Part shown: piece by piece, positions 4,872 through 59,536 of the stretch
Position numbering within the stretch: position 1 is the stretch's first letter
Layout: each line of letters starts with the position of its first letter
From: a virus
IMG/VR virus record: IMGVR_UViG_3300043411_001118
Coordinates: 1-64,000 of that record
Length of the DNA: 64,000 nucleotides
Reading direction: 5' to 3' (one strand)
Notes under the pieces: model-generated
What the model was told of the DNA's origin: nothing
Databases searched by the model: none
Seen by the model: only the letters and a program-made list of their open reading frames with translations
Translations under genes and position numbers: made by a program

Positions 4872-5225
4872 ATGAAAACTTACAAGCAAATTTTAAAAGA
4901 ATCAAAAACCTTACTTAGTGAAGATGGATTTCTCAACAGCTTAGAGAGTCTATTTGATCTCAAAAAGGCTAAGCAGAATGTGAAGGCTGGAGTTTCTTTA
5001 ACCAAGGAAATGATTCAAGCCGTCAAAAAACACGATCCAGAAGACAAGGCAACTATAAAAGATTATGAGAATGACATCTACGACTTAGAAGAAATTTTTC
5101 TTGCATTGGATAACGAAGAGGTAACAGAGGCAATTAAGATGTTTGATAAGTTAAGTGGTGATATCGCGGATAGGGTAATCGATCCGGTACAATATAAAAG
5201 ATCTTTTCGCAAAGATTTTTTCTAG
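4872..5225 (+). CDS. small head-targeted protein (capsid-targeting leader)
   Basis: A 117-aa, highly charged helical protein of unknown function. Its N-terminus MKTYKQILKES is close to the leader of T4 internal proteins (MKTYQEFIAEA), and LKE-S fits the L-x-E cleavage rule of the prohead protease. I infer packaging into the head during assembly and release with the DNA. It sits at the end of the baseplate operon and just before the J-domain protein, which has the same kind of leader. Confidence 0.65.
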   Translation: MKTYKQILKESKTLLSEDGFLNSLESLFDLKKAKQNVKAGVSLTKEMIQAVKKHDPEDKATIKDYENDIYDLEEIFLALDNEEVTEAIKMFDKLSGDIADRVIDPVQYKRSFRKDFF

Positions 5226-5271
5226 AATCGTCCCTGAGCTACCGAAGGAGCAAGAGCTAAACTTCCCCATC

Positions 5272-6291
5272 ATGAAAAAATACTCCACATTTCTTCTTGA
5301 AGCTCAACTCACACATTCCGATGCAGTTAAAATTCTTGGGCTAAAGCCCGGATACTCTCCAGACGATCTATCCTCGACCTATAAGCTAATGGCTAAACTT
5401 CACCATCCAGATAAAGGTGGGGATGTTGAGCAAATGAAACAGATCAATGCAGCTTATAATTTGCTGAAGGGATCGCCATCTGGAGATGATGAACAAAAAT
5501 CTTGGGACAAGTATCAGGCTAGAAAAAAACGGGATACCGAAAACTTAACTGATATCTTAGAAGTCTTTACTAAGAAATATCAACCAGGAATCTTTAAAGC
5601 CTATTTTGAAGACATCTACGGTATATCATTTAAGATGGAAACTTCATCACATATTGGAATGTATGGAGCTAATGTAAAATCGAAATACTTTAGTGAAGAT
5701 CGCGGAACTGTTATTGATATTGAATTCTATATGTCCGTGAATAGTACCAACGGAGATGCGAAATTAGGACCAGACGAACATTCTGGAGTTGGAATGACTA
5801 TATCCAGGACGATTTTTCATAACAGGAGACGGATCAAACTAGCTCAACAGAACTATTCGTTTGAATCGGACTATCGAGTGTTATCACAACCGGAGAAATT
5901 GTTTCCTAAAGACAAGATGGTTGATAAGTCTAAGAATGCAGGAAATTTGAAATTTAAGAAAGCTGATGCAATCTTAACAATCAAAAATGAGTTAGGTGCA
6001 AGGTGGGATGGAACCCAGTGGATGCGGATTCCCTTGAATGACAAATATACCTTGGTAATTTATCGATTGACTTCAATGGGTATTGGAACATGGGGAACTA
6101 GTGGGATCTACGAAGGGAACCGGCGCGTATCGAATGGACCGTTTCTATTACTAGTTGAGAATCAAAAAATTATCTACTGGTTTGTCGAACAGGTCAAGGG
6201 ACGATTACAGAAAGATATCGACTTAGCGCACATTCAAAAAGTTTTGATCGACATGGGCGCAGAATATAAAGAGTTGATCAAGAATCTTTAG
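5272..6291 (+). CDS. J-domain protein with capsid-targeting leader
   Basis: A 339-aa protein with a clear DnaJ-type J domain at residues 13-66. The helix II-III loop carries the obligatory HPD triad (H45-P46-D47) in HHPDKGG. J domains stimulate Hsp70 ATPase, so the partner should be host DnaK. No Gly/Phe or zinc region follows, and the 270-residue remainder is not recognised. The leader MKKYSTFLLEA ends in LLE-A, a prohead-protease-type site, suggesting that the mature protein is carried in the virion. A GGACGATT motif lies inside the gene near 5807 and again near 6199. The 3' end overlaps the opposing small gene by 14 nt. Confidence 0.8.
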   Translation: MKKYSTFLLEAQLTHSDAVKILGLKPGYSPDDLSSTYKLMAKLHHPDKGGDVEQMKQINAAYNLLKGSPSGDDEQKSWDKYQARKKRDTENLTDILEVFTKKYQPGIFKAYFEDIYGISFKMETSSHIGMYGANVKSKYFSEDRGTVIDIEFYMSVNSTNGDAKLGPDEHSGVGMTISRTIFHNRRRIKLAQQNYSFESDYRVLSQPEKLFPKDKMVDKSKNAGNLKFKKADAILTIKNELGARWDGTQWMRIPLNDKYTLVIYRLTSMGIGTWGTSGIYEGNRRVSNGPFLLLVENQKIIYWFVEQVKGRLQKDIDLAHIQKVLIDMGAEYKELIKNL

Positions 6292-6451
6292 CGATTTTAG
6301 CAGTAGAATTCGCAACTAATTTTTCGATATCCCATAAAGTCACTTTAGTAGCACCCCTCAGTTCTGGAGTCATTAACGAGTAATGTATTTTACTCCACAC
6401 ATGGCTTTTAATATTGATACGAACTAGTTGGTAATTTGCTTTTGGTTTCAT
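6278..6451 (-). CDS. small orphan protein, paralogue of the gene at 7092
   Basis: A 57-aa protein that reads MKPKANYQLVRINIK and later SHVWSKIHY and KVTLWDIEKL. It aligns along its length with the protein at 7092-7292 (MKPNSNHQQVRIKIK, THVWSKIHY, KVTIWDIEKM), so one is a duplicate of the other. It overlaps the end of the J-domain gene tail-to-tail. Function is unknown. Confidence 0.7.
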   Translation of the reverse strand: MKPKANYQLVRINIKSHVWSKIHYSLMTPELRGATKVTLWDIEKLVANSTAKIAKDS

Positions 6452-6465
6452 ATTCTGGTGTGTCC

Positions 6466-6690
6466 TTATAAAAATATTGGATCGTCACTCCAATAACCAA
6501 GAAAATACGCTGGCATTTCGCGTCTAACAGGGACCATCGAATTTTCTATTGATATGGTAAATAGTTTCTGTGCTGATTGAAATTTTTCATGAATCACAAG
6601 CTTATTATAATACAACAAATCGATCTTGTTCTTACGCTGTAAGGTTTCTGCAATTTTTGCAGATACGCCATTGAGATTAAAATCGTTCAT
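6466..6690 (-). CDS. small orphan protein
   Basis: A 74-aa protein, unrecognised. It is one of a run of tiny leftward genes of 55-80 codons. The start overlaps the stop of the next gene upstream by 4 nt (ATGA), which supports translation as part of a coupled unit. Confidence 0.5.
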   Translation of the reverse strand: MNDFNLNGVSAKIAETLQRKNKIDLLYYNKLVIHEKFQSAQKLFTISIENSMVPVRREMPAYFLGYWSDDPIFL

Positions 6691-6878
6691 GTTTTATGTG
6701 GGATGTCAGAATTTATCACTAGGGTTTGTAAAGGTTGATAATATTTTTTCACCTCGATTCCCCTTAACGCGCCAATTAATTTCGTGTTGAATATTTTATT
6801 CCAGAACATGTCATTTATTATCCTAGTGGGTCCATTTTCGTTAACAATGTGGTCCAGGTAATTTATCGGTTTATTCAT
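6687..6878 (-). CDS. small orphan protein
   Basis: A 63-aa basic protein of unknown function in the array of tiny leftward genes. The ATG lies 7 nt after the gene upstream and is preceded by GGAAT. The end overlaps the gene at 6466 by 4 nt. Confidence 0.5.
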   Translation of the reverse strand: MNKPINYLDHIVNENGPTRIINDMFWNKIFNTKLIGALRGIEVKKYYQPLQTLVINSDIPHKT

Positions 6879-6884
6879 AATTAT

Positions 6885-7085: not shown

Positions 7086-7091
7086 AATTGT

Positions 7092-7292: not shown

Positions 7293-7296
7293 ATTC

Positions 7297-7696: not shown

Positions 7697-7856
7697 TTTC
7701 GATCCTTTGATGAAGACAAGTTACTTCCCTTATACTCGATTCCATTAGTTGAATCATTAACAAAGTGTAGACAGAAAATTGGAAAGGAAACTCTAGCTCC
7801 GACTTAAAAAATTCATCAAGAGCATTGTAGATGTGCGCCGATTTTTGCTCATTCAT
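7686..7856 (-). CDS. small orphan protein
   Basis: A 56-aa protein starting MNEQKSAHIY. The ATG at 7856 overlaps the TGA of the gene upstream, so I prefer it to a TTG at 7889. The protein is helical with a hydrophobic second half and is unrecognised. The region between the two start candidates contains a GGACGATT motif. Confidence 0.5.
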   Translation of the reverse strand: MNEQKSAHIYNALDEFFKSELEFPFQFSVYTLLMIQLMESSIREVTCLHQRIENGH

Positions 7857-8083
7857 AATTTCGTTCTCAATCGTCCTTGATGTATCCAAGCTACTACCTG
7901 TGAGGAATTTCTTATTATCTGATTGAACGGACCTCTAACCTCTACTTGAAATAACCAAGAATCATTCACGGAAACATGATTGATAACTTCTGGCATAGAT
8001 TTAATAACAGCCTCGTCAATCGTTTGGGAACATTGTTGGGATATCAACATTCCAGAAATTTTTATGTTGGTTTGATTATTCAT
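7853..8083 (-). CDS. small orphan protein ending in GRLR
   Basis: A 76-aa protein of unknown function with AGGAT 5 nt before the ATG. Its C-terminus (GRLRTKL) comes from a copy of the GGACGATT motif placed at the 3' end of the gene, as in several neighbours. Confidence 0.55.
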   Translation of the reverse strand: MNNQTNIKISGMLISQQCSQTIDEAVIKSMPEVINHVSVNDSWLFQVEVRGPFNQIIRNSSQVVAWIHQGRLRTKL

Positions 8084-8089
8084 ACTATC

Positions 8090-8302
8090 CTAAAATCGTC
8101 CCTTGTATAACGCTCGACGAATGTTAAATTCTTGAGAACTTTCCATTCGAGTTTGAATTGCGGCTATTAAATCCGTTACATAGTAATTTGGCATTGGAAT
8201 AATTGTGGATGGCAAACTTTGATTCAAGGAACATTCCAAGGATTCTAATGTCCTTAAAATACAATCCACATCTCCATATTGCATTTTAATTTGTTTGTTC
8301 AT
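8090..8302 (-). CDS. small orphan protein ending in KGRF
   Basis: A 70-aa protein with no recognised domain. GAGG stands about 10 nt before the ATG. The last codons (KGRF, stop) are formed by a GGGACGATT motif. Confidence 0.55.
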   Translation of the reverse strand: MNKQIKMQYGDVDCILRTLESLECSLNQSLPSTIIPMPNYYVTDLIAAIQTRMESSQEFNIRRALYKGRF

Positions 8303-8303
8303 A

Positions 8304-8504
8304 CTATTCTAACCTCAATCGTCCCGAAACTAATTTTTGAAACCCCAACAAAATCGTCTCATACGCTACACATGTTATATGTGATGACCACGAAATTTTT
8401 GATAGTCCTGGAATATTTGAATCTAGTCTCCACCCGATCTTTTGTAATGTATAATCGATTTCTCCCATCTTATTAAATGCTATGTTTGCTTGATGCTCAT
8501 TCAT
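8304..8504 (-). CDS. small orphan protein ending in GRLRLE
   Basis: A 66-aa protein. The start at 8504 is set by CGGAG 7 nt upstream and by the stop of the preceding gene at 8506; a longer reading would overlap that gene extensively. The C-terminal GRLRLE comes from a GGGACGATTGAGG sequence that also supplies the ribosome binding site of the following gene. Confidence 0.55.
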   Translation of the reverse strand: MNEHQANIAFNKMGEIDYTLQKIGWRLDSNIPGLSKISWSSHITCVAYETILLGFQKLVSGRLRLE

Positions 8505-8505
8505 A

Positions 8506-8718
8506 TTAAAACTCCGGAAAAATACGAGAGTCTGAACCATGTGCGCCCACATTCCAGATTGTGGCGAGTAATTCCCAATAATAATGTTGTATCGCGTAGT
8601 TAGTAAAGTGTTGAAGGTTTTGGTCCAAGGACGATTCGATAGCTTTAGCTCTTTCAGTAGCTTCAATGGCTATAATAATTCTAGAGTTTCCATCCTCTGT
8701 CCAAAGTTTATTTTCCAT
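8506..8718 (-). CDS. small orphan protein
   Basis: A 70-aa protein with an early IIIAIEATERAKAIESSLDQ helix, unrecognised. GAGGT lies 8 nt before the ATG and is part of the GGACGATTGAGG motif at the end of the upstream gene. A second GGACGATT copy lies within the gene at 8629. Confidence 0.55.
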   Translation of the reverse strand: MENKLWTEDGNSRIIIAIEATERAKAIESSLDQNLQHFTNYAIQHYYWELLATIWNVGAHGSDSRIFPEF

Positions 8719-8952
8719 TTATTTTAACCTCAATCGTCCCTTGTCTAAATTCCTCAATCTCATCAAAATTTCCTGGTCCAACCAAACTACCATACTATAC
8801 TCAAGTTCTGGAGTCTGTTCAAATAATGTCCAATCGATTCTTTCGACCCCGTTATCAATGTGTACAACCCGACTCAGACCAAAATTTGGACCAACGACAT
8901 CCACACTTACTTGTTTTGAATCAAGAGTTTTGTCTCGTGGCATTATTTTCAT
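8719..8952 (-). CDS. small orphan protein ending in KGRLRLK
   Basis: A 77-aa protein of unknown function in the tandem array. The final residues KGRLRLK come from a GGGACGATTGAGG motif. The start overlaps the upstream stop by 4 nt. Confidence 0.55.
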   Translation of the reverse strand: MKIMPRDKTLDSKQVSVDVVGPNFGLSRVVHIDNGVERIDWTLFEQTPELEYSMVVWLDQEILMRLRNLDKGRLRLK

Positions 8953-9149
8953 AGTATCCTTCTTTGATTGGCCAATTTCTCTGGAGATGATTGATTCAAC
9001 ATTAAATTTAACTCCTGGATACGATTTTCGAATCGAAGCTGTTGGTATGCCGATACTTCAACCAAATCAAAAAATCCAACAAATATCTTGTGCTTTAAAG
9101 ATTCTCGAATCGCCCACGAATATCGAACACTGGAGTTTGGCTTATTCAT
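8949..9149 (-). CDS. small orphan protein
   Basis: A 66-aa protein starting MNKPNSSVRY. The ATG at 9149 overlaps the end of the gene upstream (AATGAATAA). A longer reading from 9305 would lie almost entirely on top of that gene. It is helical and basic, and unrecognised. Confidence 0.5.
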   Translation of the reverse strand: MNKPNSSVRYSWAIRESLKHKIFVGFFDLVEVSAYQQLRFENRIQELNLMLNQSSPEKLANQRRIL

Positions 9150-9345
9150 TTGGTGTAAATCCAAAATTCGATCTATTGACTTCTCGCATATTCTGAAACC
9201 AAGTGAATAAATTCGTATGAACCACGCCAATAAAATCATAAGGAATTTGTCGAAATGATCCATGACGAAACTCATTTTCGATATGTTCTCTAATCCCCGC
9301 CGCAACTTCCTCGGAAATTATATGTGATTGAAGTTGATGATCCAT
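9142..9345 (-). CDS. small orphan protein, possible paralogue of 9347
   Basis: A 67-aa protein. The segment I-R-E-H-I-E-N-E-F-R-H-G resembles I-Q-R-N-V-E-N-D-L-R-Y-G in the next gene upstream. That hints that the array grew by duplication and divergence. Function is unknown. Confidence 0.5.
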   Translation of the reverse strand: MDHQLQSHIISEEVAAGIREHIENEFRHGSFRQIPYDFIGVVHTNLFTWFQNMREVNRSNFGFTPNE

Positions 9346-9346
9346 A

Positions 9347-9589
9347 TCAATACCCCATCGATTTTCGAAGATCTTGTTCCACCAAAAAATCGTGATCCGA
9401 CACTACATTCTGAATATCAAACTCGAAGTTAATTAATTTTATAACTCCATCGATTGAAAGTCTGTTAGTTATTCCATACCTCAAATCATTTTCCACGTTA
9501 CGCTGAATTCGAACCTTTATCAGCTTGCCGAAATTTGCATCGAGATGGCTTAGCATAGCCTTACCATCATGTTCGATATTACTTGTCAC
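9347..9589 (-). CDS. small orphan protein, possible paralogue of 9142
   Basis: An 80-aa protein with the E-N-D-L-R-Y-G motif shared with the gene at 9142. It is acidic in its C-terminal third. Its 5' end overlaps the preceding gene by 11 nt. Not recognised. Confidence 0.5.
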   Translation of the reverse strand: MTSNIEHDGKAMLSHLDANFGKLIKVRIQRNVENDLRYGITNRLSIDGVIKLINFEFDIQNVVSDHDFLVEQDLRKSMGY

Positions 9590-9770
9590 GTCTGACCTCT
9601 TGATGCAAAAATCGAATCATATAATTTAGATCCCAGAGAATTTCAAAATTTGCCTCTTCTATCAGAGCCGACAAATCTATTTTATTCTTACAAATTGATA
9701 TGTTATTATCCACCTTAATAACATTAGTGGCATCTCGAATATCCTCTCGTATCGATTGACGGTCCATCAA
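9579..9770 (-). CDS. small orphan protein
   Basis: A 63-aa helical protein starting MMDRQSIRED, with an NFEILWDLNYMIRFLHQEV helix near the end. It is of unknown function and overlaps its upstream neighbour by 4 nt. Confidence 0.5.
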   Translation of the reverse strand: MMDRQSIREDIRDATNVIKVDNNISICKNKIDLSALIEEANFEILWDLNYMIRFLHQEVRRDK

Positions 9771-9964
9771 TCCTCCCGATTAATTTCTATCGATTCGACT
9801 TCAGAAATGTCATAAGCCGAATTTACTGTTAGCCGATATTTTCCACTCTTCATTTTCTCTAACATAAAAATCGGTCCACCAGACATAGTGATCGTTATGA
9901 ATTTTTCGATCTCGAAGTCTGTGGATGTTCCGTCTTTATTTTTGAAATGTAATGATCTTTTCAC
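9767..9964 (-). CDS. small orphan protein
   Basis: A 65-aa, probably beta-rich protein (SLHFKNKDGTSTDFEIEKF, then a GKYRLTV strand). Unknown function. It overlaps the genes on both sides by 4 nt, as expected for a coupled operon. Confidence 0.55.
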   Translation of the reverse strand: MKRSLHFKNKDGTSTDFEIEKFITITMSGGPIFMLEKMKSGKYRLTVNSAYDISEVESIEINRED

Positions 9965-10185
9965 AATACCCTTGCCTTCATAGTCTCCGTATCGAATTGA
10001 ACTGTAACATACTCGCCATGTTCAATCCACTTTTGGAGTTTGTCGTATTGCTCAGACTCTCTTTTTTCGATCAATGCCTCACGTTCATACTCATCTGTTA
10101 TCTCTTTTGGGATTGAAGCAATTACCGCATCCCGCACCGCATCCGAGACTGTATCAGGATCTTTAAATGTAATTTCAATAATCAT
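9961..10185 (-). CDS. small orphan protein
   Basis: A 74-aa protein beginning MIIEITFKDPDTVSDAVRDA with a charged middle and a C-terminal Y-V-T-V-Q-F-D strand. Unrecognised. ATGA overlaps join it to both neighbours. Confidence 0.55.
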   Translation of the reverse strand: MIIEITFKDPDTVSDAVRDAVIASIPKEITDEYEREALIEKRESEQYDKLQKWIEHGEYVTVQFDTETMKARVL

Positions 10186-10487
10186 ATTTTCTCCGACAAA
10201 ATTCCTTGAATTTTGAGTGTTGAAATGATTGCCCTCATTCCTGCTTGTAGTCCAGCACGATAATCATCGAGCCTTTCTTCAGTTAAGTCTTTGGTCACGG
10301 TCTTAGCCCACTTAATTTGTTCAGTTTCGATCTGATTCTGCCAATTGTAAAGTAGGGAAAAATCAACTATTCCGCTTCCTTTAGTCATCGATTTATTTTC
10401 CTTTGCCAACCTGGCTTGTTCTTGTGGATTACAACACCACGGCATCCCGCGCTCATAACCACATTTATCACAATACATTCCTGTCAT
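10182..10487 (-). CDS. small putative zinc-binding protein
   Basis: A 101-aa protein. The N-terminal CDKCGYERGMPWCC segment (residues 6-19) has a C-x2-C plus C-C arrangement suited to zinc binding. The rest is helical. It overlaps the next gene upstream by 4 nt and is probably expressed from the promoter at 11019-11052. Confidence 0.6.
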   Translation of the reverse strand: MTGMYCDKCGYERGMPWCCNPQEQARLAKENKSMTKGSGIVDFSLLYNWQNQIETEQIKWAKTVTKDLTEERLDDYRAGLQAGMRAIISTLKIQGILSEKI

Positions 10488-11607: not shown

Positions 11608-12642
11608 ATGAAATTCTCCCAATTCTTAACTGAACTGCAAATAGCTAAGCTTCCAGGATTGGGCCTAGCAAGGCATAAAATGCCTCAGATTGCCGGGGAT
11701 AAGATTCAAGCATTCCTAGCCAAGCTTAGGCAAGACGGCATCTCAAGCCGAACTACGACCATTGAGGCATCAAGGCTGAAGCCGACTCAGAATGAATACA
11801 ATGTCGAGAAAGTCAAGGCATTGAAGCAACAGATCTTGAATCTGGACCTGAAGCCAAAACCATTAATCTGTTCTATTGATAACTACATTCTAGATGGTCA
11901 TCACACTTGGTTAGCTCGTAAAGAAATTAATCCACACTACCCAGTTCATGTTATCCAAGTGAACCTTCCTATTAAAGCATTGATTGATGTCGCATCTGAA
12001 TTCGAACACGCAAGACATAAGAATATTCATGAAACGTTTTTAAGTTTTTTGCGCGAAAAGAAAGAACCCGTTACTGATCCGAGACAGCCTTGGGAGAATC
12101 CAAAGGATGTTGAGAACACAGAGGCATTGAAGAAATATTATGATGAAATCATTTCAAAAATTCAAGAAGCTAAAAATGCATTCAATAGAATTTTGAAATT
12201 AGAAGGTCAAGGCGGGAAAGTTCTTTTGGGTTTGAAGCCGTTTGATAGTTTTATTGATAAGGTTGTCAAACGAGGAAAACCGGCAGATCAAATTCATGAT
12301 GTGCTTCGCGGAGCAATCTTGATGTCAACAAGTGAAGATGTTGATCGTGTTGTAAAGAGCATTGCTAAAAGATATCGAATTTACGAACACGAAGTAAAAG
12401 ATAAAGAACATACGAATGAGTTTGGTTATTATGGTTCACACCATTTTAAAATATTAGTTCCAACTAAAACTTCTGGTGGAGTTATTGCGGAAATTCAGAT
12501 CATGACAAAAAAACTTTGGTCATATAAATCTGTCGCACATGACATCTATACCAAGTGGAGAAGTTCAGAGGAAATTGATTCTGATATCCGAGCGCAGGAT
12601 GTTGCTTGGTCAAAAGAATTATTTCGGCTTGGTAATCGCTAG
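11608..12642 (+). CDS. head-targeted ParB-like / RelA-SpoT synthetase-like fusion
   Basis: A 344-aa protein with three parts. Residues 1-9 (MKFSQFLTE) form a capsid-targeting leader ending in L-T-E. Residues about 48-125 resemble a ParB-like nuclease domain (RLKPTQNEYNVEKV, then ILDGHHTWLA at 94-103). Residues about 205-320 match the RelA/SpoT nucleotidyltransferase family: K-P-F-D-S-F-I-D-K, D-Q-I-H-D-V-L-R-G, GYYGSHHFKI at 273-282, and EIQIMT at 295-300 where Rel proteins have EIQIRT. Such enzymes make (p)ppGpp or, in toxSAS toxins, pyrophosphorylate other substrates. I infer a virion-delivered effector that alters host nucleotides or tRNA. It is transcribed against its neighbours. Confidence 0.75.
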   Translation: MKFSQFLTELQIAKLPGLGLARHKMPQIAGDKIQAFLAKLRQDGISSRTTTIEASRLKPTQNEYNVEKVKALKQQILNLDLKPKPLICSIDNYILDGHHTWLARKEINPHYPVHVIQVNLPIKALIDVASEFEHARHKNIHETFLSFLREKKEPVTDPRQPWENPKDVENTEALKKYYDEIISKIQEAKNAFNRILKLEGQGGKVLLGLKPFDSFIDKVVKRGKPADQIHDVLRGAILMSTSEDVDRVVKSIAKRYRIYEHEVKDKEHTNEFGYYGSHHFKILVPTKTSGGVIAEIQIMTKKLWSYKSVAHDIYTKWRSSEEIDSDIRAQDVAWSKELFRLGNR

Positions 12643-12978
12643 GTATTTATTGCCATCTTTAATGACTTGATAATTTAGCTCAGATTCAATAATTTTAATG
12701 AATCGGTTGTAGACTCGAACCCGACTTTTCTCCATTGCAGAAAACCAAAAATATGGTGGGTAGTTTTCGAAAATATATTCACTTAGAATCTCGAATACAT
12801 TTTTTAGAACTCGAAATGGGTTTTTTGATTCGTTTGTTATTCGGGTTTGTGATAGTGAGTAACCCATGTCATCTGTCTTTCTTTCGTTGATCAGAGCAAA
12901 GGATATTTCCGAAGTTTTAGATACAATGAATTTATAAATGGAGCCATCAATCACAAATTGTTTCTCAAAATTATTCAT
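12619..12978 (-). CDS. conserved small protein next to Rel-like gene
   Basis: A 119-aa protein. The motif ENYPPYFWFSAMEKSRVRVY, followed by R-F-I-K-I-I-E-S-E-L-x-Y, is a pattern I have seen in unnamed phage and plasmid proteins. Its end overlaps the Rel-like gene tail-to-tail by 24 nt, and its start overlaps the end of the ppGpp-hydrolase-like gene, from which it is probably co-transcribed. It could be an accessory or antitoxin, but nothing in the sequence proves this. Confidence 0.6.
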   Translation of the reverse strand: MNNFEKQFVIDGSIYKFIVSKTSEISFALINERKTDDMGYSLSQTRITNESKNPFRVLKNVFEILSEYIFENYPPYFWFSAMEKSRVRVYNRFIKIIESELNYQVIKDGNKYLAITKPK

Positions 12979-13406
12979 GTCATTTTCTGTCCAGAAAGAA
13001 ACTCATAATATTTTTTATATTCCTCAACCCTTACAAAATCTTTCGCGGTTAGATTCTTCAACCTAGAAATTTGCGCGTTATGCTTCAAGTCTGACATCTT
13101 AACAACTCTTGCCAGTGGATTTCTTTTTATCTTTTTGAAATACTCATCGGACGATCCAATACCCTTGGTTAATAGTTGTACAGCATTTATTAAGTTTTGG
13201 GGGATTCCCTTAACTAATAGGTCATTAGGAAATAGGGGAGTATCTTCTAAGATGTCGTGAAGATAGGCGACGATCTTTTCTTCTGTGGTATTGACACCAG
13301 CAACAACAGCTTCAATGTGTTTGATGTACGATTCGCCACCCAAATCTTTTTGATTGGCGTGGTATTTCAAAGCCAATTCTTTCGCAATTTCGAGTACCTT
13401 ATTCAC
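12975..13406 (-). CDS. MESH1/SpoT-type HD-domain (p)ppGpp hydrolase-like protein
   Basis: A 143-aa single-domain HD protein of the RelA/SpoT hydrolase class. All signature residues are visible: H30 in Y-I-K-H, H50-D51 and E54-D55 in LHDILEDT, and D106/N110 in SDLKHN. The family removes the 3'-pyrophosphate of (p)ppGpp using Mn2+. I chose the GTG at 13406 because GGAGGT lies 7 nt upstream; a longer reading would cross the promoter at 13426-13454. It lies 333 nt beyond the end of the opposing Rel-synthetase-like gene, which suggests the two functions are linked. Confidence 0.8.
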   Translation of the reverse strand: MNKVLEIAKELALKYHANQKDLGGESYIKHIEAVVAGVNTTEEKIVAYLHDILEDTPLFPNDLLVKGIPQNLINAVQLLTKGIGSSDEYFKKIKRNPLARVVKMSDLKHNAQISRLKNLTAKDFVRVEEYKKYYEFLSGQKMT

Positions 13407-13425
13407 GTCTCTAACCTCCATAATC

Positions 13426-13454
13426 AATATACCAAACTTATCCAAATATGTCAA
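13426..13454 (-). promoter_or_regulatory. sigma70-like promoter of the hydrolase gene
   Basis: TTGACA at 13454-13449, a 17-nt spacer containing TTTGGAT, and TATATT at 13431-13426. It is the best match to sigma70 consensus in the family. It leads into GGAGGT and the GTG of the HD-domain gene. Confidence 0.8.
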
Positions 13455-13756: not shown

Positions 13757-14170
13757 TTAGTGGTTTATGTTGTCTAAGAATGATTTGTCAAATATTGTTA
13801 CTGTTTTAATAGCAAGATCTCGACCCCAAATAACTTGGTTTTCTACCTTTTCAGATTTTTCTGCGTCCGATAGTCTGGCTGTGTTGTCAGTCACATCAAT
13901 ATAAACCAGCCCACCATGACCGGTTGTATCGTGATGTCCTGGTGGATTGTCGTTGTGATACCACCGGAAAACATTTTTTAAATTGGCCTGACCATAGTAA
14001 GCAATATCATCTTTATCACATGGAAAAAGTGATCTGTCTCGCACCCCAGAATTTTTAAATGATATCCATCCAGTCGATCCATTAAGTCCTCGACGACCAA
14101 TTTTAACAGTAAAGTTTGGTGGTAGTTTGTCCGGGGATGCTTCATTGAGAATTTCTTTGAACGATTTCAT
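13757..14170 (-). CDS. head-targeted protein of unknown function
   Basis: A 137-aa protein. The leader MKSFKEILNEA ends in L-N-E-A, the same capsid-targeting pattern and protease site as other candidates in this window. The mature part is rich in Gly, Asp and aromatic residues and has an HNDNPPGHHDTTGHGG segment with four His, possibly metal-binding. No family is recognised. Unlike the other leader-bearing genes, it sits within the early small-gene region. Confidence 0.65.
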   Translation of the reverse strand: MKSFKEILNEASPDKLPPNFTVKIGRRGLNGSTGWISFKNSGVRDRSLFPCDKDDIAYYGQANLKNVFRWYHNDNPPGHHDTTGHGGLVYIDVTDNTARLSDAEKSEKVENQVIWGRDLAIKTVTIFDKSFLDNINH

Positions 14171-14175
14171 AAAGC

Positions 14176-14376
14176 TTATTTAGATCCAACTAATAGTTTA
14201 GCATACTTTACAGCAGCATCTTCGTTATTGAAGATTTTAATGGTTTGTACTAGACCTCCAGATTCATCGTCCCTGAGAATAACAGAGTATTTTTCTGTAA
14301 CGGGATTAACTACAAATGTCGTTATCTCAAATTCTGCATTCGTAAATTTGTGAATCGTCCCTGGCAAATCTTTCAT
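14176..14376 (-). CDS. small orphan protein
   Basis: A 66-aa protein, beta-rich followed by a short helix (N-N-E-D-A-A-V-K-Y-A-K-L-L). Unknown. Two GGACGAT motifs lie within it, near 14265 and 14353. Confidence 0.55.
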   Translation of the reverse strand: MKDLPGTIHKFTNAEFEITTFVVNPVTEKYSVILRDDESGGLVQTIKIFNNEDAAVKYAKLLVGSK

Positions 14377-14639
14377 AATAATCCCCTACTTTTTGCTAAA
14401 CCAAACATTCTCGATCCCATTCTCATCCTACAGAATTCCTCAATTGTCTCACACCCGCTGTCCTGATATGCGCCCATAGTGAGACCGTATTCTTCAGCAA
14501 TGAATAATAACGCCGCCGTCTTCTCATCTCCACCGGCGCGTCCAAACAGATATTTTTGTCTGAGTATTCGGATCTCTCCCCGACCTCGTTTCCTCATTCC
14601 GAATGTATGGATGATCTGTTCAACTTGTTGTGTGTTCAT
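14373..14639 (-). CDS. small orphan protein
   Basis: An 88-aa basic protein (GMRKRGRGEIRILRQ near the N-terminus) of unknown function. It overlaps the gene downstream by 4 nt. Confidence 0.55.
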   Translation of the reverse strand: MNTQQVEQIIHTFGMRKRGRGEIRILRQKYLFGRAGGDEKTAALLFIAEEYGLTMGAYQDSGCETIEEFCRMRMGSRMFGLAKSRGLL

Positions 14640-14643
14640 TTTA

Positions 14644-14988
14644 TTAATCCCCGATATCCAAGGTGCTGAAAGTTTCTTTTATCGGTACATGCTTGGGGCT
14701 ATTAAGTCCACCTTTTAGTATGAATGAGTTGGAGATCATTCCCCAATCAAAAAGTCCAGTATTAAATATCGCCCTAGTGATCGCTATTGTATCCTGATAG
14801 GATGTTGACTTCTCCCTAACCAACTTCGACTCGAAATCTCTTATGGAATATTTTGCAGATTCACCCTTGGATATTAATTCCTGCAAAATATTTTGAATTT
14901 CCTCCGCAAGCAAATCAATATCGACGGACTCATTTTTCGGTGAATCCGGAATCATATAATGTGGATATGGTGCGTAAAAATATAACAT
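14644..14988 (-). CDS. hypothetical protein
   Basis: A 114-aa protein with an aromatic N-terminus (MLYFYAPYPHYM) and an acidic helical middle. Not recognised. AGGAGACG precedes the ATG. Confidence 0.6.
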   Translation of the reverse strand: MLYFYAPYPHYMIPDSPKNESVDIDLLAEEIQNILQELISKGESAKYSIRDFESKLVREKSTSYQDTIAITRAIFNTGLFDWGMISNSFILKGGLNSPKHVPIKETFSTLDIGD

Positions 14989-14999
14989 TTCGTCTCCTA

Positions 15000-15236
15000 T
15001 TAAATGTGTCTACCTTGTAATCTCAATAACATTTCGATCTGAGTGTTTGTGAATCCATATTTGGAAGCACGAAGTTTAAAAACCTCTGTCTTACTGTATT
15101 CCCTCACATGAAATTTTTTCACATCGTAAGCATGGCCCGGATAACTATCCTGGAAAATTTTAAAAAGTTGATCGGCCTTACTTCTCCCGCCACAAGCCTT
15201 CTCAAAATTTTCTGTTTCTTTCTGTTCGTTGTACAT
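15000..15236 (-). CDS. small orphan protein
   Basis: A 78-aa charged protein (MYNEQKETENFEKACGG) of unknown function, with a well-placed GGAAAC upstream. It belongs to the unit started by the promoter at 15551-15580. Confidence 0.6.
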   Translation of the reverse strand: MYNEQKETENFEKACGGRSKADQLFKIFQDSYPGHAYDVKKFHVREYSKTEVFKLRASKYGFTNTQIEMLLRLQGRHI

Positions 15237-15244
15237 GATGTTTC

Positions 15245-15508
15245 CTACTTTTTTAAAAATTCAGCGTCAAATTCTCTAACTGCTTTCGCTCTTTCCTCAG
15301 CAAAACTCTTGGCCCCATTCAGAACCGATTTTGCCAACTCAGAATATTCCCCGTAGGCAACAGCAAGTTCAAGAACAAATTTTTTGTTTGTCTTAACTTC
15401 ATTTTGAACGGATTCGAAAATCCGACCAACCTTTTCGCCGTTTCCATTAACAGCAGCTTCCCACATTCTGTGAATCGCCAACTGAACCAATCTTTTATTT
15501 CCTTTCAT
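15245..15508 (-). CDS. small helical protein
   Basis: An 87-aa protein starting MKGNKRLVQLAI. The ATG at 15508 sits 5 nt after AGGAG; a longer frame upstream reads through the promoter and is not coding. It has an amphipathic A-E-E-R-A-K-A-V-R-E-F C-terminus. Unknown. Confidence 0.6.
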   Translation of the reverse strand: MKGNKRLVQLAIHRMWEAAVNGNGEKVGRIFESVQNEVKTNKKFVLELAVAYGEYSELAKSVLNGAKSFAEERAKAVREFDAEFLKK

Positions 15509-15550
15509 CATATCTCCTATCAAACTGGTTGAACTCTCAACCACAGATAT

Positions 15551-15580
15551 ATGATGCCACACATTATCCAAATGTGTCAA
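15551..15580 (-). promoter_or_regulatory. sigma70-like promoter (early family)
   Basis: TTGACA at 15580-15575 overlaps the stop codon of the upstream gene. CATTTGGATAATGTGTGG forms the spacer, and CATCAT/ATATAT forms the -10 region. It serves the genes at 15508 and 15236. Confidence 0.65.
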
Positions 15581-15960
15581 CTAATTCTTTTCCACTGGTC
15601 ATTAATAATTTGTGGAGTTAATTCAAGGGTTTGGGTCATTTCTATAACCACCCTTTCGTGCATATTATTGGCCAGAACGTCATCCAATTCTTTCAATCGT
15701 CCCTGAGTCTTAAAATCGATTTGGTATTCAGTACGAGTTATTGCATCCTGAAACTTACTATTATCAGCGAAAAATACCATCGTTTCGTAGTAATGTGTTG
15801 ATCCTAGCTTGTGGACCTCTTCACCAATAAACCAATTGCCGACAGTCGAAACCACTATTTTTAATGGTCCAAATATTAACAACGTGTTTCTATGAAACAG
15901 ACAATTTCTTGCATCACAAAAATGTCCCGCCCACCCGCGCTCAGTTTTTTCTACTCTCAT
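15577..15960 (-). CDS. conserved phage hypothetical (RGWAGHF family)
   Basis: A 127-aa protein. The pattern T-E-R-G-W-A-G-H-F, then C-L-F-H-R-N-T-L-L, STVGNW, YYETMVFFA and N-N-M-H-E-R-V-V is a very common but unnamed family of phage and mobile-element proteins. I know no function. The TGA overlaps the -35 box of the promoter below. Confidence 0.7.
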   Translation of the reverse strand: MRVEKTERGWAGHFCDARNCLFHRNTLLIFGPLKIVVSTVGNWFIGEEVHKLGSTHYYETMVFFADNSKFQDAITRTEYQIDFKTQGRLKELDDVLANNMHERVVIEMTQTLELTPQIINDQWKRIS

Positions 15961-15982
15961 TTATTTCCTTTATATAAAATTG

Positions 15983-16198
15983 TTAGCCGCCGCCATGACG
16001 ACCAAAACCAATCGATTTGTTAAGACTATAGACCTCCACATCTCCCCATTCGTATGGAACGTGTCCCAGTTTTTTAATGATGATTTTCTTAGCCTTCTCT
16101 TCACTTGAGGCAATTGCGAATGCCAAACCAGAACTCCAATCTGGAGAGAAACTATCCCACACAAACAATTTTAATTTTTGTTTTCGTTTAGTCTTCAT
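15983..16198 (-). CDS. small conserved protein
   Basis: A 71-aa protein with L-F-V-W-D-S-F-S-P-D-W-S-S-G-L-A-F-A-I-A, then a helix, then a W-G-D-V-E-V-Y strand. This looks like a small alpha/beta fold common in phages. I chose this frame over an overlapping 64-aa frame because of its composition. Function is unknown. Confidence 0.6.
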   Translation of the reverse strand: MKTKRKQKLKLFVWDSFSPDWSSGLAFAIASSEEKAKKIIIKKLGHVPYEWGDVEVYSLNKSIGFGRHGGG

Positions 16199-16412
16199 CT
16201 AGATCCTTCTTTTTAAATTCGCCACACCGCATATCCTCGCTCACATCCGGAAACTCTGATGATGTGTAACTCTTGATATACGAATCACCATAGTCCGGTT
16301 GTTTCGTTTCAGTATACGAAACAACAGTTGGTGGATATCTCCGACACCGACCAGTTTTATCCTGGCTATTGTATCTGGCAAAAAATTTACAGTTGCCACA
16401 ATTATTTTCCAT
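16188..16412 (-). CDS. small Cys-rich putative metal-binding protein
   Basis: A 74-aa protein. CGNCKFFA near the N-terminus, GRCRRYPP in the middle and MRCGEF at the end give four Cys in a C-x2-C...C...C layout. It resembles the small C-x2-C-x-F-F / C-R-R-x-P-P proteins widespread in phages. The start at 16412 is preferred to 16424. Confidence 0.65.
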   Translation of the reverse strand: MENNCGNCKFFARYNSQDKTGRCRRYPPTVVSYTETKQPDYGDSYIKSYTSSEFPDVSEDMRCGEFKKKDLDED

Positions 16413-16704
16413 TTGTATTCCCACGAACCCAAGATTCGACTACAGTTCTTTCTTTCATAGGAAATGGAGTTGATAAAATATGATCAATCCAGACGCGCCC
16501 ACGTTCAGTTAATTCAAATACATTTGGAATAGTTTCGTGTTCCAATAATATCCCACTACGAACAAGCTCTCTCTGAAAGGAATCAAGTATTTGATGGTCT
16601 GCTTCAATAAATGGATCTTGAGAAATATAACAGTGAATCAAGAATTCTAATTCAAATATTGACATCATTTTTGTTTCCTTTTTTGTTGCTCTCATTAATT
16701 CCAT
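16402..16704 (-). CDS. hypothetical protein, possibly winged-helix
   Basis: A 100-aa protein. The segment F-Q-R-E-L-V-R-S-G-I-L, followed by F-E-L-T-E-R-G-R-V-W-I, recalls small winged-helix domains, though weakly. GGAG lies 4 nt before the ATG, which overlaps the preceding stop (TTAATG). Confidence 0.55.
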   Translation of the reverse strand: MELMRATKKETKMMSIFELEFLIHCYISQDPFIEADHQILDSFQRELVRSGILLEHETIPNVFELTERGRVWIDHILSTPFPMKERTVVESWVRGNTNGK

Positions 16705-16817
16705 AAGTCTCCATCACTAATAAGCCAAACTATAAACGTAGCCACTACTCCAGCCGTAAACGCCATCCACAGATGTGCAAGATCAATTAAAATCGTTACC
16801 GATTCACAATACGTCAT
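16695..16817 (-). CDS. 40-aa single-pass membrane protein
   Basis: A short gene with GAGG 6 nt before its ATG. The peptide has one hydrophobic segment (LWMAFTAGVVATFIVWLI). It overlaps the next start by 10 nt and begins 2 nt after the upstream stop. Role unknown. Confidence 0.55.
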   Translation of the reverse strand: MTYCESVTILIDLAHLWMAFTAGVVATFIVWLISDGDLWN

Positions 16818-16818
16818 A

Positions 16819-17112
16819 TTAGTCCTCACCAATCAAAGGAAAGGTTTCGATACTATATTCATTACCACCACCAAACTCTGTCCAGTCGGAATCTAATTCG
16901 TGAACCAACATTTCTAATTCTGCTTTGCGGTTCGGCGACCAATCAACGGAAAAAATTTTTCGATATCTTTCCATGAGTTGTTCATTTATTTTCTGACACT
17001 CTGCCCGAAAAGATTCGGCCATGGACATATCCACAAAAACTTTTACGATCCGTTTCTCGGAGTCATAATCACCATCTTTCGCTACAACAATATAACAAGC
17101 CTTACTTTCCAT
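16819..17112 (-). CDS. hypothetical protein
   Basis: A 97-aa protein with a CYIVVAKDGDYDSE opening and an acidic helical body, ending in FGGGNEYSIETFPLIGE. Not recognised. It overlaps the gene upstream by 11 nt. Confidence 0.6.
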   Translation of the reverse strand: MESKACYIVVAKDGDYDSEKRIVKVFVDMSMAESFRAECQKINEQLMERYRKIFSVDWSPNRKAELEMLVHELDSDWTEFGGGNEYSIETFPLIGED

Positions 17113-17365
17113 TGTCTCTGACTCCCAATCTCCAAATTAATCCAGTCCTAACACAATATCCAAAAATTGTATCTTCCGGAGTAGCCCTGGTCCTAGAAGT
17201 TTCGATCATGTATCGAATTGATTCAAGATCAAATTTGTATCCAGACCGTTCTTCGAGATAGTCTTTAATGTCCAATTCATGCTCAAACATGGTTGACTTC
17301 ATATCTCCACAGGACATCGGAAAAATTCCGGGGATCATTTTATCTTCAATTAATATTGCGCTCAT
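17102..17365 (-). CDS. hypothetical protein
   Basis: An 87-aa protein of unknown function with mixed alpha/beta composition. It overlaps the genes on both sides, in the unit read from the promoter at 17922. Confidence 0.55.
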   Translation of the reverse strand: MSAILIEDKMIPGIFPMSCGDMKSTMFEHELDIKDYLEERSGYKFDLESIRYMIETSRTRATPEDTIFGYCVRTGLIWRLGVRDNGK

Positions 17366-44875: not shown

Positions 44876-44911
44876 AACAAATTTACTTTGTTGGGAACGG
44901 TGTTTGAAAGG

Positions 44912-44984
44912 TTGCAGGGACGGGATTTGCACCCGTGTTCTACAGAGTATGAGTCTGTCGAGATACTAGCTTCTCCACCCTGCT
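44912..44984 (-). tRNA. tRNA with CAU anticodon (Met or Ile2)
   Basis: Leftward 73-nt cloverleaf: acceptor AGCAGGG/CCCTGCA, D stem GAGA/TCTC, anticodon stem ACAGA/TCTGT with loop CTCATAC (CAU), T stem ACGGG/CCCGT with loop TGCAAAT, discriminator A. The first acceptor pair is an A-A mismatch. An initiator tRNA also has an unpaired 1-72, but the three G-C pairs of the initiator anticodon stem are absent. The 3' CCA is not encoded (CCT). Confidence 0.85.
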
Positions 44985-54818: not shown

Positions 54819-54904
54819 GTTGTTAACCGTATGCAACCTTACTTATTCAGACAACACTAGTTTATCAGAGATCTACTATTTGTCTAGTTTGGCTACTTCC
54901 AAAT

Positions 54905-55875: not shown

Positions 55876-55911
55876 ATTACCCAAGTATATAGGGCCATTA
55901 TGCTATTTCAT

Positions 55912-57150: not shown

Positions 57151-57207
57151 TCGATTTCTCCTAGAATTGAAATATCTTTCTAAGTGGTTATTTAGCAGAT
57201 TGAGGAA

Positions 57208-57966
57208 TTATTGAATGGAGCTAATTAGCTTTCTGGCACTAACAATTTCAAAAAAGGTTCTACCTATGATAGAATTCAACTTATCCAGTCTGAACAGGGT
57301 ATCTCCCCAGATTGGTCTATAATGTAGACAGTTCTCCGATGGAACAGCTAACAATTGACCTGTCGTTCTCATCGTCCCTCGACCATCTCCCATCCGTAAG
57401 GGAGAATCGTCCTGGTCCAATTGCATCAATACGTCCATCAATTCGATTGGAGTCTTACTCATCGACATCGATATTTCTGGAATTTTTATATCATCTCGAT
57501 TAGAAATGACTGTTGACGATGACCTTGATAACTCTTTAACAGCCGATGAATATACACCATCTATATTACTGCCATCTAACACAAATGCTTTCTCGGAATT
57601 CATCACCAAAACATTTCCTGTGATCTCTTGTTCCTTTAAAATCTCAATTGACTCTTCTGGAGTTGATGCATATAAAGCTTTTCTGACTCTCAGACCCTCC
57701 GGTGAATTGTATTTTCTTTCTTCTCGATTCGCCCGTCTAATATCGGATATCTCATTTTCGATATCGATTCTTGGACAAACCAAAACAACTAAACCGTGTT
57801 CGTTTAATCCTTCGGAGAATCGACTGACCTCATCCCAAAGGAACAAACGTTCGATATCATTTCGAAAACTCTTTCTGATTCTGATCCTTGGCTTATAATT
57901 ACAGTCTCGATTCTTCGCCGCGACAAATCCAACACCATTAAAATATTTGCAAACTATAGTTGACAT
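57208..57966 (-). CDS. Ntn-hydrolase-like protein (acyltransferase/C45-type)
   Basis: A 252-aa protein: V-G-F-V-A-A-K-N-R-D near residue 12-21, then E-G-L-N-E-H-G-L-V-V-L and a late H-Y-R-P-I-W-G-D. The N-R-D and E-G-x-N-E-x-G pattern is typical of Ntn-hydrolases of the choloylglycine/acyltransferase type found in some marine phages. These normally use an N-terminal Cys or Ser nucleophile; after Met removal Ser 2 would be first here. The start overlaps the stop of the zincin gene (TAATG). Confidence 0.55.
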   Translation of the reverse strand: MSTIVCKYFNGVGFVAAKNRDCNYKPRIRIRKSFRNDIERLFLWDEVSRFSEGLNEHGLVVLVCPRIDIENEISDIRRANREERKYNSPEGLRVRKALYASTPEESIEILKEQEITGNVLVMNSEKAFVLDGSNIDGVYSSAVKELSRSSSTVISNRDDIKIPEISMSMSKTPIELMDVLMQLDQDDSPLRMGDGRGTMRTTGQLLAVPSENCLHYRPIWGDTLFRLDKLNSIIGRTFFEIVSARKLISSIQ

Positions 57967-58742
57967 TATCCAAACCTTTTCTGATAAGCATTAAAAAGCG
58001 AGAACTGTTTTTTCACCATAGATGCCCAAGATTTTGCTCGATTTTGGAGTGAGTGATCTCCCTCGATGAAAGTTGCGTAATATGCATTAATCAAATATGA
58101 AACGACATCTGCTGAGTATGTGTCATCGGGAAGATTGTATTTTTTAATCGCCGCCTGTGATACATCCCAATATGCATTTATCCGCTTATCAATGTCATCA
58201 GGAAGAATGAGTCGCGGAACATCATCCACCAAATAATCGATAAACCCATAAAATTTAGTAACTGGAACACCACTAAATTTCAGAACTATCCCCTGTACCC
58301 ACGGCTGAAATTCTATGTCTTGAAAAATATATTTAGCACCATCCAACCCACGTCCACCTGTCTCATAATTAAGAGTTTTCCAAGGCGTTAGTTTTTGTCT
58401 GGAGTGTATGAATTCGTGGATAAATGTTGATAGTAGGGTTTGTGCAGTTCTGGGCTTATTCCATATCGAATCGTGAACCGTAGGAACTCCCAAATAAATT
58501 TCATCTGGTGTCCTGAATTCTCCGTTAATTGATCCCGATATACGAAACACAACCTCCATTTGCGGCCCAAATTGTTTCGTTTCGTTTGAAAGTTGATCGG
58601 CCATTGATACCAGATCAACATTACCCTTCGCCCCCATGTCACGAATATTTTTTGAAATAATTTCTTTGGACGATTGATAGAGTTTGTAAAACTTATCAAT
58701 GAACGATTCATTCAGAAACGATTTAAAGGAACGCCCTGACAT
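57966..58742 (-). CDS. head-targeted zinc metalloprotease-like protein (copy 2)
   Basis: A 258-aa protein. Leader MSGRSFKSFLNESFIDKFY contains the F-L-N-E-S targeting and cleavage pattern. A zincin motif FIHEFIHSRQ gives H109-E110-x-x-H113. YIFQDIEFQPWVQGIVL and a final Y-Q-K-R-F-G are shared with the upstream paralogue. If active, it would be a metallopeptidase injected with the DNA. The third zinc ligand is not obvious. Coupled by TAATG to both neighbours. Confidence 0.7.
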   Translation of the reverse strand: MSGRSFKSFLNESFIDKFYKLYQSSKEIISKNIRDMGAKGNVDLVSMADQLSNETKQFGPQMEVVFRISGSINGEFRTPDEIYLGVPTVHDSIWNKPRTAQTLLSTFIHEFIHSRQKLTPWKTLNYETGGRGLDGAKYIFQDIEFQPWVQGIVLKFSGVPVTKFYGFIDYLVDDVPRLILPDDIDKRINAYWDVSQAAIKKYNLPDDTYSADVVSYLINAYYATFIEGDHSLQNRAKSWASMVKKQFSLFNAYQKRFG

Positions 58743-59536
58743 TATCCAAACCTTCTTCGATATATCTGAAACAATTTAAATTCTTTTTTAATAACCTTGA
58801 TCCAAGACGTTGCTCGACTTTTTAACTCATCATTACCAATTTGGAATGTCGTATTATATACATCTATTAAATTCGAAACTGCGTTTGTTGTTGATGGATC
58901 TTTAGGAATATTAAATTTTTGTAAGATTTTTGAAGTAGCGACAACAATTTCAAATTGTCGTTGACTATCTGGACCCAAAAAAGAAAATTTCATTTCTGGA
59001 ACTTCGGTTATTAGTGAATCGACAAACGCATTAAAATTTCCTTCGGGAACATCTATAAATCTTAAAATGGTTCCCTGTATCCACGGTTGAAATTCCAAAT
59101 CTTGGAACATATATTTGGCTTGTTTTAGTGAAGATCTGCCACGTTGAATATAGGATGATTTAAAATATTCCGCTGAAATTTCTTGCCGAGAATGAATGAA
59201 CTCATGAATTATGGTCGAAATCAATTTGGTTATTATATGTTCTTTTCTCCAAACAGGATCAACAAACATCGGAACATATAAATTTATTTTTTTATCGTCT
59301 GAAAAGTATACTCCGGAGATTGAGATGTTATTTTTTCTATTTTGTATAAACTCAATTTCAATCTTATCTCCAAACCTAGAAAATTCCAAAGAAATTTTCC
59401 TCTCAATTTTAGGAATGGCATCAGAAATTTTGTTGTTTGCTACTAGCTCATCATTCAAAATTTTTGTGATATTCTGGTAAACAGTATAGAACTTGTCCAC
59501 GAACGATTCATTTAGGAATGTCTTGAATGTTCGCAC
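58742..59536 (-). CDS. head-targeted zinc metalloprotease-like protein (copy 1)
   Basis: A 264-aa paralogue of the next gene. Leader MRTFKTFLNESFVDKFY (GTG start), then IIHEFIHSRQ with H111-E112-x-x-H115, Y-M-F-Q-D-L-E-F-Q-P-W-I-Q-G and a final Y-R-R-R-F-G. The leaders, zincin motifs and ends are the best conserved parts; the middles have diverged. This suggests an old tandem duplication with both copies kept. Confidence 0.7.
   Translation of the reverse strand: MRTFKTFLNESFVDKFYTVYQNITKILNDELVANNKISDAIPKIERKISLEFSRFGDKIEIEFIQNRKNNISISGVYFSDDKKINLYVPMFVDPVWRKEHIITKLISTIIHEFIHSRQEISAEYFKSSYIQRGRSSLKQAKYMFQDLEFQPWIQGTILRFIDVPEGNFNAFVDSLITEVPEMKFSFLGPDSQRQFEIVVATSKILQKFNIPKDPSTTNAVSNLIDVYNTTFQIGNDELKSRATSWIKVIKKEFKLFQIYRRRFG

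Follow-up and report, generated by a model that had tools for sequence, protein, structure and literature searches.

Why should six proteins of a virus, spread across a 64,000-nucleotide window of IMG/VR record IMGVR_UViG_3300043411_001118, open with nearly the same short peptide? The ORFs concerned (4872, 5272, 11608, 13757, 57966 and 58742) all begin with a [FY]xx[FYIL]-L-x-E leader (Table 1). Re-reading the DNA bore out an earlier, sequence-only reading in its account of the six shared N-termini and of their L-x-E ends, which give LKE, LLE, LTE and three times LNE as the P3–P1 tripeptides. Aromatic or hydrophobic residues stand at positions 4 and 7 exactly in four leaders. The near-variant motif that had been described fits all six, although the 11608 leader lacks one residue and is followed by L where the motif has A or S, and the 57966 leader is offset by two residues.

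Table 1 Leaders, mature parts and neighbouring hydrolase gene in the window. The predicted cut follows the last leader residue given.
Feature	Position	Strand	Sequence or assignment	Remark
Leader 1	4872-4901	+	MKTYKQILKE (next residues SKT)	N-terminus read; late operon, immediately 3′ of baseplate genes
Mature part 1 (107 aa)	4902-5225	+		Function without assignment
Leader 2	5272-5301	+	MKKYSTFLLE (next residues AQL)	N-terminus read
Mature part 2	5302-6291	+	J-domain protein	Pfam DnaJ E 4.7e-8; phrog_13942 E 1.8e-47; HPDKGG motif
Leader 3	11608-11634	+	MKFSQFLTE (next residues LQI)	N-terminus read; TAAATA late-promoter-like motif close upstream
Mature part 3	11635-12642	+	ParB-like half and RelA/SpoT synthetase-like half	Pfam RelA_SpoT (PF04607) E 7.5e-11; weak PHROG ParB match
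Hydrolase homologue	12975-13454	-	HD-family (p)ppApp/(p)ppGpp hydrolase homologue, leaderless	PDB 7smg (p)ppApp hydrolase E 5.9e-27
Mature part 4	13757-14140	-		Weakly similar to a protein of Citrobacter phage Miller that has the leader (MKSFKELLSES..)
Leader 4	14141-14170	-	MKSFKEILNE (next residues ASP)	N-terminus read; 13757 ORF starts at 14170; TAAATA upstream
Mature part 5	57966-58706	-	Putative zincin with HEFIH motif	HEXXH seen by eye
Leader 5	58707-58742	-	MSGRSFKSFLNE (next residues SFI)	N-terminus read; 57966 ORF starts at 58742
Mature part 6	58742-59506	-	Paralogue of mature part 5	38% identity, E 6e-59
Leader 6	59507-59536	-	MRTFKTFLNE (next residues SFV)	GTG start at 59536; TAAATA upstream

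The targeting sequence of phage T4 has been known for decades. This capsid-targeting sequence (CTS) and the T4 internal proteins IPI–IPIII and Alt are the work of Mullaney and Black (reviewed in PMC9026906), and IPIII genetics assigns positions 4 and 7 to capsid targeting and positions 8 and 10 to processing by gp21 (PMC9026906). The N-terminus of T4 ipII and ipIII reads MKTYQEFIAEA, and the key positions of our leaders (4, 7, 8 and 10) coincide residue for residue with the T4 CTS, which upholds the resemblance to T4 internal proteins first proposed.

So short a motif might recur by chance, or reflect a general amphipathic or translation-start bias, and have no packaging role. From its 12 matches in 28,419 internal protein positions, the core motif is expected at 0.32 N-termini per 192 called genes, and it is observed at seven (Poisson P = 6e-8); the strict form, M[KR]x[FY]xx[FYIL][LI]xE[AS], occurs at four N-termini and at 0 internal positions in called genes. 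The search of all 192 genes recovered the six proteins originally noted but also added a seventh, 90362 (MSYEKIVLEK), which matches the relaxed motif and which we treat as a likely chance decoy. Among the matches listed in IMG/VR, 118 of 125 to the glutamate pattern lie at an N-terminus, compared with 37 of the 92 matches to an E-to-K control (Fisher P = 4e-19). A pattern with a shifted glutamate mostly matched genuine leaders with EEA at their end and could not serve as a clean null; it was reused with P1 left free, and E still occupies P1 in 64 of 82 IMG/VR matches. On the genome expectation, the E-to-K control and the free-P1 test we reject both chance similarity and a general N-terminal bias, which have become scarcely credible.

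The record also encodes the machinery that such a leader would need. Lack of a prohead protease in the complete genome had been named as grounds for abandoning the packaging idea; the 103.8 kb record does encode an S77 (gp21-like) protease (E = 2.9e-42), at 94647-95129, beyond the window. Further profile matches in the record are to a scaffold (phrog_237, E = 9e-31), gp23 (E = 2.7e-136) and the protease (E = 1.7e-66). The sole [LIV]xE[ASGN] site in gp23 is LGE/A at residue 63 (slash, predicted cut), and the gp22-like scaffold has 15 such sites, LNE/A included, so that the [LI]-x-E ends of the leaders match sites in the phage's own head proteins. Across IMG/VR, leader-bearing contigs are enriched for T4-type head genes: gp23 is found on 10 of 33 leader contigs and on 0 of 39 control contigs (P = 2e-4), and the S77 protease on 10 of 33 against 3 of 39, an association limited by the fragmentary state of the contigs.

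Proteins with this leader are found in the virions of other phages. Three of the 219 CDS of cyanophage S-CREM2 carry the strict leader, and they encode a SAM hydrolase, a kinase and a cytidylyltransferase. These are exactly the three non-structural enzymes classed as 'regulatory' that mass spectrometry detected in purified virions (PMC10665884); the authors of that study attach a carry-over caveat to their virion data. The association of leader with detection alone is moderate (P = 0.013), the stronger point being that the leader genes coincide exactly with the non-structural class, which also speaks against chance similarity. Also found in virions are S-SM1 T4-GC190 (leader MKKFSAFLNEA; PMC3037559), the S-SCSM1 NMNAT (MKSFLQFLKEA) and the S-CRM01 kinase (MISFDQFLSEK). 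The leader is a likely route by which non-structural enzymes enter cyanophage virions. As in our phage, the enzymes of S-CREM2, S-SCSM1 and S-SM1 have the same leader on non-structural proteins, but the cargo differs, and their papers, in the parts available, give virion detection and mention no leader. Because the leader alone found exactly the three regulatory enzymes of S-CREM2, the genome of a T4-like phage allows its injected cargo to be predicted. The leader is not universal within each family, since the J proteins of KP15 and Mm5, the HTVC008M cytidyltransferase and the phiM12 Rel are homologues that lack it.

The conserved positions, the co-encoded head genes, the spread through IMG/VR and the virion proteomes together point to capsid targeting of the T4 type applied to new cargo, and we put the probability that the leader is a T4-type CTS on such cargo at about 0.88. 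The modular head-loading scheme of the sequence-only reading thus gains support from a leader found beyond chance, from co-encoded protease, scaffold and gp23 sites and from leader enzymes in the virions of other phages. Late-type TAAATA motifs lie upstream of three of the six leader genes, compared with 21 of 186 others in the record (P = 0.027), and of 62/170 leader genes against 345/1608 in IMG/VR (P = 2e-5). Cargo would be produced late in infection. The aromatic or hydrophobic residues at positions 4 and 7 of its leader would dock on the gp22-type scaffold core, so that assembly of the gp23 shell would trap inside it any protein carrying the leader. Cleavage by the gp21-like S77 protease, behind [L]-x-E at position 10, would next release the mature cargo within the head, from which it would exit together with the DNA when the phage infects its next host.

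That T4-like phages use the CTS on varied cargo is an earlier proposal (PMC9026906), and in the literature searched we found no systematic reading of the T4-type leader. The system described here shares with that of T4 (CTS, IPI–IPIII and Alt) a 10-residue leader with aromatics at 4 and 7 and [LI]xE at 8–10, a gp21-type protease, a gp22 scaffold and unrelated mature parts. It differs in belonging to a distant T4-like phage and in its cargo, J-domain, ParB-RelA/SpoT and HEXXH proteins for which searches of the mature parts gave no PHROG or Pfam match to internal virion proteins.

The mature parts had been called unrelated. This stands for five lineages but not for one pair: 57966 and 58742 encode paralogues in tandem which, leader included, share 38% identity from end to end, leaving five independent cargo lineages instead of six. 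Such a pair of true paralogues sharing a leader would suit descent of all six proteins from a single ancestral internal protein, with the N-terminus retained, the remainder diverged or exchanged, and the targeting function gone. We consider this history very improbable. Most non-key leader positions differ among the six, as do the codons used, while the key positions are kept, and the 184 leader proteins among the matches listed in IMG/VR fall into at least 52 unrelated mature families. Of 13 full-length relatives of the J-domain cargo, 10 have the leader, as against 0 of ~67 generic DnaJ proteins; Desulfovibrio phage 7757 and Vibrio phage vB_VmeM-32 are cultured phages whose J protein bears it. 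As this family retains it in distant phages, the leader is under selection.

Of the domains assigned earlier, the J domain and Rel are confirmed by profile matches and ParB has a weak one, whereas the zincin identity of the 57966/58742 pair is putative and comes from the HEXXH motif only. An AF2 model of the 57966 protein (pLDDT 73) has low confidence at residues 1–12 and a long helix from residue 14, and gave no significant fold match in the PDB. The mature part at 4902 has no Pfam or PHROG family above noise, and structure prediction for that at 13757 (pLDDT 36) gave no usable fold. As single-protein queries on viral contigs, 5272, 58742 and the baseplate gene 3425 returned no close relatives.

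Granted a cleaved leader that targets the prohead core, the cargo could consist mainly of helpers of core assembly or head morphogenesis and not of injected effectors. T4 IPIII affects head morphology and the IPs co-purify with gp22 (PMC9026906), and a J-domain protein could help folding during head assembly. Yet the leader-bearing cargo consists of non-structural enzymes (RelA/SpoT, SAM lyase, cytidylyltransferase, kinase, adenylate kinase) and differs between phages, as assembly factors do not, and T4 Ip1–3 are injected restriction inhibitors (PMC12373910). A predominantly assembly role therefore seems improbable to us. The cargo (a J-domain co-chaperone-like protein, ParB-RelA/SpoT, the HEXXH pair and two unassigned proteins) is most simply read as host-takeover or counter-defence factors that would act in the first minutes. 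Reading the leader as a CTS yields a candidate list of such proteins that includes SAM lyase, kinases, an alarmone synthetase and a J-domain protein. In phage P1, an N-terminal signal also directs a defence-countering protein into the head (the capsid targeting signal of DarB; PMC9024508), but the signal is a different one, the Dar pathway is stepwise and P1 has no separate scaffold (PMC9024508).

The cargo at 11608 is probably an alarmone synthetase, a candidate assignment from its sequence. Residues D231, E295 and Q297, which we take to be the RelA_SpoT catalytic residues, are invariant across three relatives. Its ParB half is homologous to a virion protein of phage LIMEstone1 confirmed by mass spectrometry, ORF101, in which the aromatic residues of the leader are present and the E at the cut site is missing. 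The neighbouring hydrolase homologue retains the metal-binding H, HD and D residues and is a candidate protector against this cargo. Alternatively, ParB-Rel would act once infection has begun, on replication or stress signalling of the phage itself, with no delivered effector, and the hydrolase would be unrelated housekeeping. The hydrolase gene is convergent with the Rel gene, one gene lying between, so outside its operon, and it is also found in some phages without the Rel cargo. The Rel gene, however, has a CTS-type leader and an upstream TAAATA, its ParB homologue is in LIMEstone1 virions, and hydrolase and Rel co-occur (6/10 against 2/17), so that we judge a purely internal role unlikely, while giving it appreciable weight.

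A broader proposal, which we hold tentatively and at less than even odds, is that the CTS leader is a delivery code, legible in the sequence and used across the T4 superfamily, for dozens of unrelated injected effectors, here including a head-loaded (p)ppApp/(p)ppGpp synthetase-ParB fusion with a separately encoded alarmone hydrolase that protects the producer. If so, the pair would be a lytic-phage counterpart of toxin plus immunity. The MuF toxin Apk2 with its Aph1/IapK immunity (PMC12226406) similarly pairs a RelA/SpoT-fold alarmone synthetase associated with the phage head and an alarmone hydrolase linked to it, functions that are predicted from sequence here; it is a MuF fusion of temperate phages, in place of the cleavable CTS leader. 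The polyvalent proteins of phages and conjugative elements (PMC5512222), thought to be active on entry, draw on the same repertoire of ParB, RelA/SpoT and zincin-like peptidase domains, but fuse many of them in one large protein, whereas here the cargo proteins are small and each carries one leader.

The conserved positions of the window's leader, Y/F4, F/I7, L8 and E10, are the functional positions of T4 IPIII, in which ten residues are enough for packaging, positions 4 and 7 act in targeting and positions 8 and 10 act in processing (review of Black's work, PMC9026906). T4 ipII and ipIII both begin MKTYQEFIAEA. All six N-termini read exactly as reported in the sequence-only reading; one leader lacks a residue relative to the others, and another is offset by two positions. 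The same reading held that the six cargo proteins are unrelated; this is borne out for five lineages, but two proteins are tandem paralogues (38% identity), so the independent lineages number five. Among the 192 called genes of the record, 7 N-termini match the motif (one of them likely a decoy), where 0.32 would be expected from how often the motif occurs within proteins.

The window belongs to a 103.8-kb record whose T4-like structural genes (for portal, protease, scaffold, major head protein gp23, tube and sheath) form a block beyond the window. Its closest gp23 relatives are those of Methylophilales phage Melnitz (54% identity), Stenotrophomonas DLP6, and Pelagibacter and cyanobacterial T4-like phages. 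The gp21-like protease for which a search had been proposed is present, matching both the S77 prohead protease family (E 2.9e-42) and the phrog_207 head maturation protease (E 1.7e-66). The leader cleavage motif fits the phage's own substrates: in the 438 residues of gp23 the sole [LIV]xE[ASGN] site is LGE|A at position 63, and there are 15 such sites in the scaffold, including LNE|A. The twelve leader residues of cargo 5, one of the HEXXH paralogues, form an N-terminal segment that AlphaFold models with low confidence, and the first long helix begins directly after them. These results support the interpretation that the leader is a T4-type capsid-targeting sequence (CTS). CTS loading is a known process; what is new here is the cargo.

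The CTS has been suggested to allow varied proteins into T4-like phages (PMC9026906), and the reach of the leader is much wider than the literature searched describes. We looked in IMG/VR for DNA encoding MKx[FY]xx[FY][LIMF]xEA, took as a control a version with K in place of E, which was run over the full collection, and counted matches at the start of ORFs of at least 50 aa as N-terminal. Among the matches listed, 118 of 125 were N-terminal, compared with 37 of 92 for the control (Fisher 4e-19). With any residue allowed before the cut, 64 of 82 distinct N-termini still had E there. The 184 leader proteins fall into at least 52 families, between which the mature parts have no similarity; recognizable cargo includes cytidylyltransferase-like proteins, adenylate kinase, S-adenosylmethionine lyase, DUF192, WYL_2 and DUF6267. 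The gp23 family occurs on 10/33 leader contigs versus 0/39 control contigs, and S77 on 10/33 versus 3/39 (7.3 versus 1.2 per Mb). Each of the 13 named phage records examined, which comprise T4, S-SM1 and phages with a homologue of cargo 2, 3 or 4, also has S77.

Relatives of the J-domain cargo occur in 201 phage records. Among relatives gathered by the J protein itself rather than by the leader, 10 of 13 full-length proteins carry the leader, as against 0 of about 67 generic phage DnaJ proteins. Relatives of the ParB–Rel cargo begin with a leader-like sequence in Desulfovibrio phage 7757 (MIEFKQYVLME) and in several contigs. Of the Rel contigs that reach 80 kb, 6/6 have S77, versus 3/15 DnaJ control contigs. 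The split protease domains of phage 7757 and a second record (see table) suggest that the protease there carries an insertion that keeps the frame, for instance an intein.

TAAATA is the core of T4-type late promoters. It lies within 50 nt upstream of 3/6 leader genes versus 21/186 other genes in the record (P 0.027), the latter including those for gp23, the scaffold gp22, portal, tube and sheath, and in the IMG/VR loci it precedes 62/170 leader genes versus 345/1608 other ORFs (P 2e-5).

Published virion proteomes contain leader proteins. For S-CREM2, 52 of 219 proteins were detected in virions, and the authors warn of possible carry-over (PMC10665884). Three S-CREM2 coding sequences have a strict leader, ORF6, ORF14 and ORF154, and they coincide exactly with the set of three 'regulatory' virion proteins listed in Table 3 of that paper; for strict leader against mass spectrometry (MS) detection alone, P is 0.013. 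The Cas9-like nuclease ORF12, from its sequence, may be head-loaded through an extended leader. Published data also place in virions S-SM1 T4-GC190 (MKKFSAFLNEA; PMC3037559), S-SCSM1 NMNAT (MKSFLQFLKEA; PMC9602691) and, as cited in PMC10665884, the S-CRM01 kinase (MISFDQFLSE). MS also confirmed in virions the LIMEstone1 protein homologous to the ParB half (ORF102 in PMC3296691, GenBank ORF101), at 17.31 kDa and 35.57% coverage (Table 2 therein), that is, 53/149 residues. Counted from its second Met, it keeps F4, W7 and L8 but has I, not E, at position 10, and may therefore be packaged uncut.

In cargo 3, a ParB-like half is fused to a RelA/SpoT half, which retains the Asp and Glu we take to be catalytic. 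One gene away, in convergent orientation, lies a (p)ppApp hydrolase homologue. Such homologues (E < 1e-10) occur in 6/10 large Rel-bearing records versus 2/17 controls, a co-occurrence that is suggestive only, because the counts include the related phages phiN3 and phiM12. A similar pairing is seen in MuF toxins of temperate phages, where a head-associated (p)ppApp synthetase is paired with a (p)ppApp-type hydrolase (PMC12226406). With moderate confidence, we infer that cargo 3 is a delivered alarmone synthetase with self-protection. The best functional precedent for leader cargo is T4 Ip1–3, which are injected, inhibit GmrSD restriction enzymes and have only the leader in common (PMC12373910); the S-adenosylmethionine lyase of the table is a candidate head-loaded anti-restriction enzyme.

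Features of the virus record and of the other viral loci compared
Feature	Location	Strand	Details
(p)ppApp hydrolase homologue	window 12975-13454	-	PDB 7smg, E 5.9e-27
Single tRNA-Met gene	window 44910-44984	-	
Portal gp20 gene	L003 (same record, outside window) 14132-17260; record 96132-99260		interrupted by intein with HNH endonuclease (PF14890, PF13392)
S-adenosylmethionine lyase family protein	L015 345-893		leader MKPFKHYLEEA; family match E 5.7e-14
ParB and RelA/SpoT	L423 2665-4454		separate adjacent genes; one fused protein in window
Further leader protein	Vibrio phage vB_VmeM-32 (L333) 1596-2096		MIEFDDFLQES; two genes upstream of leader J-protein gene
S-CREM2 ORF6			SAM hydrolase; MKDFDSFLEE
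S-CREM2 ORF14			kinase; MKRFDAFLTE
S-CREM2 ORF154			cytidylyltransferase; MKNFSSFLTE
S-CREM2 ORF12	record 7704-10313	-	Cas9-like; MS-detected in virions; RFASFMAEA embedded at residues 18-26
Split prohead protease domain	Desulfovibrio phage 7757 (OR395405) 3493-5046		inside one long open frame, 583 aa
Split prohead protease domain	IMG/VR record G092 104625-106154		likewise, 573 aa
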